The notes beneath the pieces are model-generated. The model had not been told where the DNA came from, ran no database searches, and worked only from the letters and a program-made list of their open reading frames with translations. Of a DNA stretch of 64,000 nucleotides, positions 19,166-46,547 are shown piece by piece. The stretch is from the NCBI RefSeq assembly GCF_036172515.1, contig NZ_JAXKVW010000001.1:186001-250000 (forward strand). Reading direction: 5' to 3'. Position 1 is the first letter of the stretch; every line of letters starts with the position of its first letter. This DNA comes from Flexistipes sp. Its GTDB lineage: Bacteria > Chrysiogenota > Deferribacteres > Deferribacterales > Flexistipitaceae. A program made the translations under genes and the position numbers.

Positions 19166-19216
19166 CAAAATTCACCCAGTGAATACATTAATAAGCCGTC
19201 TGTCAGGATAAAATCC

Positions 19217-19523
19217 CTGGCGTCACCCCAAAAATTATATAAAAGTATTGTTTTACATATACTTATTCAAGTTTCGCACTTACACTGTTTTCACGTCTTT
19301 GTTCACCCTGTTAAATATCAGCTTCGCTGATTGCCTGTGGCATTTAACAGGGCAGGGAGTGAAAACGACGAAGCAATCTCACTATTTTTCTTGTTTTGAG
19401 ATTGCCACAACCCTGTTTCCACAGGGTTTCGCAAGGATGCCTATGGCTATCACCAGTCTTTTAGACTGGTGATAGTCGAAGTCAATCAATTTGTGTACAC
19501 AATAAAAAATGGGGTGACGTCAG
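19217..19523. repeat. 14-bp inverted repeat pair flanked by 9-bp direct repeats, enclosing a family 1 element
   Basis: CTGGCGTCACCCCA (19217-19230) and TGGGGTGACGTCAG (19510-19523) are inverted copies with 13 of 14 positions matching. Just outside are ATAAAATCC (19208-19216) and ATAAAATCC (19525-19533), with one extra T on the right. Inverted ends plus flanking direct repeats are the mark of an inserted element with a target duplication. The interior, 19267-19494, is a family 1 repeat, so this may be an element nested in an element. No transposase gene is present. The gap 19166-19559 holds nothing else I can identify. Confidence 0.6.
19267..19494 (-). mobile_element. family 1 MITE-like element, copy at 19.3 kb (one end degenerate)
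   Basis: This starts with the terminal repeat TCAAGTTTCGCACTT (19267-19281) and runs in the opposite orientation to the copy at 46277-46547, with long near-identical stretches. It includes the CCCTGTTAAAT/ATTTAACAGGG stem, the ACCCTGT-loop-ACAGGGT hairpin and ACCAGTC-loop-GACTGGT. The far end near 19479-19494 (GAAGTCAATCAATTTGT) is a decayed terminal repeat. No target duplication is recognisable next to it. Confidence 0.7.
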
Positions 19524-19559
19524 TATAAAATCCCCGTTGAAAAACACCGCCAAAAAAAA

Positions 19560-30541: not shown

Positions 30542-30745
30542 GGTTGCCTTATAAATCCGTAATATACAAGCTCTAATTATTATATGCAATTTTCCTGATA
30601 TTTTTTTAAACACAATTTCCACTTGTGTATTGTAATAATTAATTTTATAAAAAAATATCTTTGAATAATTGAGTCCACTTTGTTAAAGTGCAGAAAGTTG
30701 AGTTTTTTGTTATAGAAAACGACTTTCTACCGTTTTTAGTATAAC

Positions 30746-30879
30746 TCAAGTTTTGTACTTCGTTTGAGATTGCTTCGGCGTTTTCACTCCCTGCCCTGTT
30801 AAATGCCACAGGTAATCAGCGAAGCTGATATTTAACAGGGTGAACAAAGACATGAAAACAGTGTAAGTGCGAAACTTGA
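30746..30879 (+). mobile_element. family 1 MITE-like element, short (internally deleted) copy upstream of dnaA
   Basis: A 134-bp element. Ends are TCAAGTTTTGTACTT (30746-30760) and the complement of TCAAGTTTCGCACTT (30865-30879), with 13 of 15 matching. AGTATAAC (30738-30745) on the left and AGTATAAT (30880-30887) on the right look like a target duplication with one change. The interior keeps the CCCTGTTAAAT/ATTTAACAGGG stem found in the 271-bp copy but lacks the other hairpins. It ends 31 bases before the dnaA start codon. Confidence 0.8.
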
Positions 30880-30910
30880 AGTATAATTTATTTTTATGGT
30901 GGTTTAGACT

Positions 30911-32245
30911 TTGGATAATGTAAAAATATGGGATGAAGTGCTAAAAGAAGCTTCCTATAAATTAAATGAACAAGAGATTAATACATGGCTTAAACCTTTA
31001 AGTGTTGCCGAGCTGAGAGGTGATATAGTCACAATTTCAGTGCCAAACAGGTTTTATAAAACGTGGGTGCAAGATAAATATCTGACTCTCATAAAAAATA
31101 TTTTTAATAACACTCTTTCTATTGAAGCAGATATAGAGTTGGTTATAAAAAATCAAACAAAGAAAAAGAATAACAATATACAAGCCTCCAGTCCTACATA
31201 TCATATAAATATCAATAATCATAACAGCAATATAAACAAGCAGTACACCTTTGACACTTTTGTTGTAGGCGGCTCCAACCAGTTTTCACATGCTGCATGT
31301 ATGGCGGTGGGCGAGGGTTTTTTCCATACATATAATCCTCTTTTTATTTACGGCGGAGTCGGGCTTGGAAAAACACACCTGATGCACGCTGTAGGAAATA
31401 AACTGATGCAAAGCTATCCCAAACTTAAAATTTTATATATATCAAGTGAAAATTTCACTAATGAGATGATATATTCATTAAAAACAAAAAGCATGGATGA
31501 TTTCAGAGGAAAATACAGAAGCATTGATGTGCTGCTTTTCGATGATGTCCAGTTTCTGGCCGGTAAAGAAAGGAGTACCGAGGAATTTTTCTATACTTTT
31601 AACTCCCTTTACGACTCACAAAAGCAGATTATAATAACATGCGATAAAACTCCCAATGAAATACCGACAATGGAAGACAGACTCAAAAGCAGATTCGCCT
31701 GGGGTCTTATCGCAGATATTCAGGCACCTTCAAATGAAGAGAAAACGGCCATTTTGATGAAAAGAGCAGAATTGATGAATCTTGAACTTAGTGAAGAAGT
31801 GGCCCTTTTTATTGCTGAAAATCTCAAAAGTGACAACATCAGGGAGCTAATAGGTGCATTGATCAGATTGAGTGCTTTTGCATCATTTCACAATGAAGAG
31901 CTGAGCATTGAGCTGGCAAAAAGATCTTTGGATAAATTTCTTATAAAAAAAGACAGAGCTCTCAATCCCGAAGTGATAATTGACACGGTCACCTCATTTT
32001 TCAACATAAAGCCGTCAGAGTTAAAATCCAAAAAGAGAACGAAAAGTATTTCCTATCCAAGGCAGATATGTATGTATATTCTAAGAGAAAAGCTGAATAT
32101 TTCACTGCAGGAAGTGGGTGAATATTTCGGCGGCAGAGATCATGCAACAGTTTTGCATTCAATAAAAAATATAGAAAACAAAATCAAAACAGATAGTGAA
32201 CTTAAAGAGCTGATAAACGTCATTTACAAAAAGCTATACAGCTGA
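30911..32245 (+). CDS. dnaA: chromosomal replication initiator DnaA
   Basis: ATP-dependent initiator that opens oriC. The 444 residues contain an N-terminal domain I (WDEVLKEASYKLNEQEINTWLKPL), a short Asn/Lys-rich linker, the AAA+ domain with YTFDTFVVGGSNQFSHAA, Walker A GGVGLGKTHLMHAVG and Walker B LLFDDVQFLAGK, and the DNA-binding domain ending with GGRDHATVLHSIKNIE. Start is TTG (30911), with GGTGG 7 bases upstream; the residues MDNVKIWDEVLKE fit the family start. A family 1 element lies just upstream. Confidence 0.98.
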   Translation: MDNVKIWDEVLKEASYKLNEQEINTWLKPLSVAELRGDIVTISVPNRFYKTWVQDKYLTLIKNIFNNTLSIEADIELVIKNQTKKKNNNIQASSPTYHININNHNSNINKQYTFDTFVVGGSNQFSHAACMAVGEGFFHTYNPLFIYGGVGLGKTHLMHAVGNKLMQSYPKLKILYISSENFTNEMIYSLKTKSMDDFRGKYRSIDVLLFDDVQFLAGKERSTEEFFYTFNSLYDSQKQIIITCDKTPNEIPTMEDRLKSRFAWGLIADIQAPSNEEKTAILMKRAELMNLELSEEVALFIAENLKSDNIRELIGALIRLSAFASFHNEELSIELAKRSLDKFLIKKDRALNPEVIIDTVTSFFNIKPSELKSKKRTKSISYPRQICMYILREKLNISLQEVGEYFGGRDHATVLHSIKNIENKIKTDSELKELINVIYKKLYS

Positions 32246-46276: not shown

Positions 46277-46547
46277 TCAAATTTTGCACTTCGCTTTGTC
46301 TAGCATTCGCTTCTAGCGAATATATAGAATGTTAAACATATTTACCAGTCTAAAGGACTGGTGCTAGCCATAGGCATCCTTGCGAAACCCTGTGGAAACA
46401 GGGTTGTGGCAATCTCAAAACAAGAAAAATAGAGAGATTGCTTCGTCGTTTTCACTCCCTGCCCTGTTAAATGCCACAGGCAATCAGCGAAGCTGATATT
46501 TAACAGGGTGAACAAAGACGCAAAAACAGTGTAAGTGCGAAACTTGA
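46277..46547 (+). mobile_element. family 1 MITE-like element, complete copy with perfect 9-bp target duplication
   Basis: A 271-bp element bounded by TCAAATTTTGCACTT (46277-46291) and the complement of TCAAGTTTCGCACTT (46533-46547), with 13 of 15 matching. ATAATTAAA occurs immediately outside on both sides (46268-46276 and 46548-46556). Inside are four hairpins: ATTCGC-loop-GCGAAT, ACCAGTC-loop-GACTGGT (46344-46362), ACCCTGT-loop-ACAGGGT, and an 11-bp stem CCCTGTTAAAT/ATTTAACAGGG (46462-46508) that encloses ATCAGC-GAA-GCTGAT. It has no plausible gene. Confidence 0.88.

Follow-up and report, generated by a model that had tools for sequence, protein, structure and literature searches.

Did the insertion of a short mobile element directly upstream of dnaA change how this replication initiator gene is transcribed? 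The question arises in a 64,000-nucleotide stretch of the genome of Flexistipes sp. (the window; all coordinates are counted from its first letter), where dnaA (30911..32245, + strand; 444 aa; TIGR00362 at 534.6 bits, above cut-off) opens with a TTG codon that is kept, together with its frame, in both genus relatives, F. sinusarabici and a third member of the genus. A GGTGG at 30898..30902 (+) reads as a putative Shine-Dalgarno-like site, and the GC skew changes sign at ~30 kb of the window, which places the site near the replication origin. Searches with the DnaA protein assign the window to the Deferribacterales. The three genomes are referred to below as G000 (that of the window), G001 (F. 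sinusarabici), and G002 (the third genus member).

The dnaA-proximal element is a MITE, that is, a non-autonomous mini-transposon with IS ends. The copy is 134 bp long (30746..30879, +) and is bounded by 15-bp terminal inverted repeats (TIRs), TCAAGTTTTGTACTT on the left (30746..30760, +), with two changes relative to the family sequence TCAAGTTTCGCACTT, and AAGTGCGAAACTTGA (as read on the + strand) on the right (30865..30879, -). RNA folding places a large internal hairpin, CCCTGTTAAAT...ATTTAACAGGG, at 30794..30840 (+); this module A is gained or lost in other copies and is present or absent at orthologous sites. Folded alone as RNA, the 134 nt pair from one end to the other, with an energy of -45 kcal/mol. 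Compared with a full 271-bp copy in the same window (46277..46547, +), ~137 bp are missing between CGTTT(T)G and AGATTGC, in agreement with a sequence-only reading of this DNA, which had described a 134-bp copy that retains both ends and the large stem and has lost the other hairpins; its coordinates, ends, and length all held. The short, internally deleted form is found at three places in F. sinusarabici (in one case truncated past the junction), and hence dnaA is not alone in having the deletion next to it.

The element stops 31 nt before the TTG at 30911, as that reading had it, and lies between the imperfect 8-bp duplications that it reported, AGTATAAC (30738..30745, +) and AGTATAAT (30880..30887, +), the latter containing TATAAT (30882-30887) 23 nt upstream of the start codon. 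AGTATAA is common to both flanks, and among mismatched flank pairs 1.5% reach a duplication score this high. Comparison with the related IS described below suggests that one extra base (C...A) probably belongs to each element end; counted in this way, the element spans 30745-30880, and the strict duplication is perhaps GTATAA (6 bp), or else 8 bp and imperfect.

The copy at dnaA belongs to a large family. Used as a query, it finds 40 matching places in its own genome at E<=1e-3, and a TIR pattern allowing two mismatches has 126 genome matches, compared to 4 for the reversed-pattern control. Scripted pairing of ends yields 52 elements of 132-489 bp in G000 (one is an alternative pairing of another, giving a true number of ~50) and 29 in G001, the commonest sizes being 142 bp (the base form), 193 bp (the base form plus a 51-bp hairpin module), 220 bp, and 271 bp. 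Target duplications scoring at least 6 flank 34 of 52 copies in G000 and 17 of 29 in G001, while mismatched left and right flanks give such duplications in 3.6% and 3.3% of controls, respectively. These duplications are 92% A+T, and 8 of 51 contain TATAA or TTATA. With TIRs, target duplications, short length, many copies, and no transposase gene, the family shares these features with bacterial MITEs. Of 51 gene-facing ends, 13 are located 20-40 nt ahead of a start codon (14 when one gene missed by the script, at L021, is counted), where 9.0 would be expected if AT-rich targets within those gaps were hit (P=0.07), an excess that is suggestive only. At least 12 other copies lie as near to a start codon as the dnaA copy does, and the arrangement at dnaA is thus typical for the family.

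Two further observations concern copies elsewhere in the window. The interior of the base form in the 142-271-bp copies (e.g. 46380-46520) consists of two inverted GTC[AT]TTGCGA...GCAATCTC units, which look like a repeat motif widespread among unrelated bacteria. A partial copy without a recognizable left TIR (19267..19381, -) sits, within 19200-19530, between two arms holding CGTCACCCCA that resemble the ends of another IS4-like IS, from F. sinusarabici; the region is possibly one MITE nested in another.

A candidate for the parent of the family emerged when 60 genomes were searched for the TIR with one mismatch allowed: one genome (G032, probably Denitrovibrio acetiphilus) carried pairs of ends 1.5 kb apart. 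These delimit 14 full copies of an IS of 1,524 bp (range 1,524-1,526 bp) with ends CTCAAGTTTCGCAYCT, near-identical to those of the MITE, and a 466-aa transposase that scores 335 bits against the NCBIfam IS4 model NF049925 (cut-off 250) and carries a YREK motif, YGQRWAVEVLFKDAK, at residue 343. Many copies are flanked by ~7-bp AT-rich duplications outside CTCAAG...CTTGAG (TTAACTA, TTACTCA, TAGGTAT, ATAATAA), and several show a shorter repeat or no clear one. Members of the ISPepr1 subgroup of the IS4 family have ends of the form YT-AA-YTT---A, lengths of 1,500-1,600 bp, and 7-8-bp duplications with an AT-rich preference (De Palmenaer et al. 2008, PMC2266710). The ends of the G032 IS (CTCAAGTTTCGCA) and of the MITE fit this pattern exactly, and the IS also shares with the subgroup its AT-rich duplications and an IS4 transposase with YREK. 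The MITE in turn resembles the subgroup (PMC2266710) in its ends, AT-rich targets, and duplications of ~6-9 bp, and through the occurrence of a YREK-transposase IS of 1,524-1,526 bp in a relative of the same order; it differs in that the window copy measures 134 bp and is without a transposase. Beyond the ends, an unsystematic comparison noticed no similarity between the MITE interior and the G032 IS. Judged from its ends, the G032 IS likely represents the family that mobilizes the MITE, although it sits in another family of the order and mobilization is deduced from end identity.

A profile search of G000, G001, and G002 with NF049925 found no transposase above cut-off. The best G001 matches below it belong to an IS with other ends, and a second weak group is also present in that genome. 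Two resident candidates for the mobilizer were rejected: F. sinusarabici has a 473-aa IS4-like transposase, but it is that of another IS, which carries CGTCACCCCA close to its termini, and the sole PF01609 transposase gene found in G000 is broken and lacks MITE ends. This gene (L199, G000:C4:161106-161549) is interrupted by in-frame stops.

Comparison with close relatives, which the sequence-only reading had proposed, dates the insertion. The element is present in F. sinusarabici, whose record begins inside it, at the same dnaA site with the same flanks (94-97% identical), and the internal deletion is shared as well; the insertion is therefore older than the split between G000 and G001. The region upstream of dnaA in G002 is without the element and without ~95 bp of the preceding segment. 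Identity between G000 and G001 is 94.1% in the element, 94.6% in the upstream intergenic DNA, and 96.7% at the start of dnaA; the dnaA copy drifts at the intergenic rate. The 31-nt spacer between element and gene is identical in the two species, which has a chance of ~17% at 5.5% divergence. Copies persist at other orthologous sites too, about a dozen in all. The preceding segment (30657-30737; ~80-95 bp found in G000 and G001 and absent from G002) contains a hairpin, AGAAAGTTG...CGACTTTCT, as well as AAGTGCAGAAAGTTGAG, a stretch similar to the element TIR; the segment may be what remains of an older element, or a leader element. An Rfam search returned no match near its cut-off.

It had been claimed that the right-hand duplication supplies a perfect -10 hexamer. 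The hexamer is indeed there, but it is the target's own and was not created by the insertion: the empty site, reconstructed by joining the flanks, already contains AGTATAAT, and since both flanks carry AGTATAA, TATAAT is older than the insertion and was not brought by the element. Preference for an AT-rich landing site explains its promoter-like appearance. Under an E. coli-type sigma-70 matrix built on approximate frequencies, TATAAT has its best -35 partner in GTGTAA at 15 nt in the filled site (score 6.7) and in ACGACT at 15 nt in the empty site (score 5.9), both below the mean best-site score of 8.0 in shuffled sequence. Across the junction, no acceptable -35 was found at 16-18 nt from TATAAT, alternatives scoring 2.7 or less; no site in a scan of the filled and empty sites stood out from shuffles, and no promoter was found inside the dnaA-proximal element.

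A better candidate for the ancestral dnaA promoter, judged from conservation, is the pair TTGTGT-N17-TATAAA at 30623..30651 (+). It is overlapped by a 19-nt block, AAACACAATTTCCACTTGT (30608..30626, +), that the three Flexistipes genomes share without a single difference in front of dnaA, G002 otherwise aligning poorly there. The G002 counterpart is TTGTAA-N17-TATAAA, with its -10 starting 40 nt before dnaA. The upstream -35 is thus TTGTGT (score 5.1) in the two element-bearing species versus TTGTAA (6.7) in G002, and this weakening leaves room for a promoter shift. Upstream regions of dnaA in other members of the order were rejected as a means of polarizing the promoter, having different neighboring genes or overlapping coding sequence, and no paper on MITEs and a dnaA promoter was found among those searched.

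Most likely, the dnaA leader harbors an ageing insertion that is tolerated there, and we regard as probable the whole account of an ISPepr1-type MITE, inserted long ago, with transcription starting upstream of it and a small or neutral effect. An ISPepr1-type transposase, which these genomes have since lost or never contained, would have moved the MITE in trans into an AT-rich AGTATAA site upstream of dnaA, duplicating ~6-8 bp before G000 and F. sinusarabici diverged. Since then the copy has drifted, with no resident transposase above the family cut-off to move it. Our best guess is that dnaA transcription would still start upstream of the element, from TTGTRW-N17-TATAAA or a neighbor, and that the element would be transcribed as a stable leader hairpin, possibly subject to RNase III-type processing, that leaves the ribosome-binding site free. 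Masking of that site by the element was considered and rejected, as leader folding at 37 C gives the site essentially the same accessibility whether or not the element is present (0.39 vs 0.38). The weaker upstream -35 in G000 and G001 counts against this account, since it would fit a promoter shift.

That insertion changed dnaA transcription, as had also been proposed, stands in part: a transposition product does separate dnaA from the upstream intergenic DNA, making a changed leader or promoter context likely, but the TATAAT pre-existed and is without a good -35. Were TATAAT nevertheless a working -10, the insertion would have swapped the -35 and upstream sequence for element DNA. Its position leaves room for GGTGG, 13-14 of 51 gene-facing ends fall 20-40 nt before starts against 9.0 expected (P=0.07), the upstream -35 is weaker in just those species that bear the element, and promoters are carried by other MITEs (PMC10969869); the unacceptable -35 sequences at 16-18 nt, scores below the shuffle mean in filled and empty sites alike, conservation of the element no greater than drift, and the recurrence of TATAA-type targets in the family nonetheless make such a replacement unlikely. 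Control might instead operate on the RNA, with the transcribed hairpin cut by RNase III or setting mRNA stability and thereby governing DnaA post-transcriptionally. The end-to-end fold and the candidate promoters upstream of the element are compatible with this, as is the cutting of transcripts by RNase III within Correia-type MITEs (PMC10969869); we consider it quite unlikely given that TIR pairing has been weakened differently in the two species (G-U pairs, mismatches) and that predicted access to the ribosome site is unaltered.

We give similarly little credence to the broader proposal that the MITE is part of dnaA control and reset initiator expression in the common ancestor of the two Flexistipes species. 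In that event, the ancestral promoter would have been left ~260 nt from the gene and the target's TATAAT taken up as the new -10, or, alternatively, the MITE would have added a processed hairpin leader; dnaA would then belong to a group of genes that the family has rewired alike. It is hardly credible that the sequence, instead of being a transposon, is a repeat-like structure with an origin or regulatory role at dnaA. The skew change at ~30 kb would suit such a structure, but dozens of unrelated sites have the same sequence between target duplications, dnaA of G002 is without it, and the dnaA-proximal element contains no TTWTNCACA box.

With the tolerated insertion as the preferred reading, the locus shows that the leader of a gene that is essential, dosage-sensitive, and located at the replication origin can take up a mobile element and keep it through speciation. 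It also ties an unnamed MITE family of the Deferribacterota to a specific IS4 subgroup, and an apparently perfect -10 accounted for by target preference calls for caution when promoters are read beside such insertions. Among known systems, the Correia elements of Neisseria and other bacterial MITEs are likewise short, TIR-bounded, and hairpin-forming, with dozens of copies that are mostly intergenic and often directly 5' of start codons, and they can affect nearby transcription or undergo RNase III cutting (PMC10969869); the Flexistipes MITE differs in its ends, parent transposase family, and target. Its interior of exchangeable hairpins recalls REP/BIME-type palindromic repeats, from which its TIRs and target duplications set it apart.

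Such exchange is visible between the two Flexistipes species, where a 51-bp hairpin has been gained or lost at orthologous sites (L019 vs L229, L048 vs L231, L059 vs L253, L289 vs L261, L008 vs L265). The alternative change at these sites is a swap between two unrelated hairpins, CCTGTGGAAACAGG and GAGCACTTAAG...CTTAAGTGCTC, and the changes are flanked on both sides by near-identical sequence. Gene conversion between copies, or exchange of hairpin cassettes, would explain them, and their interest is perhaps greater than that of the dnaA copy. The hairpin lost from the dnaA copy holds, in full copies, GTTTCCACA (window 19415-19423 and 46391-46399), which differs from a DnaA box at one position; sites of this kind, numbering in the dozens, could conceivably titrate DnaA.
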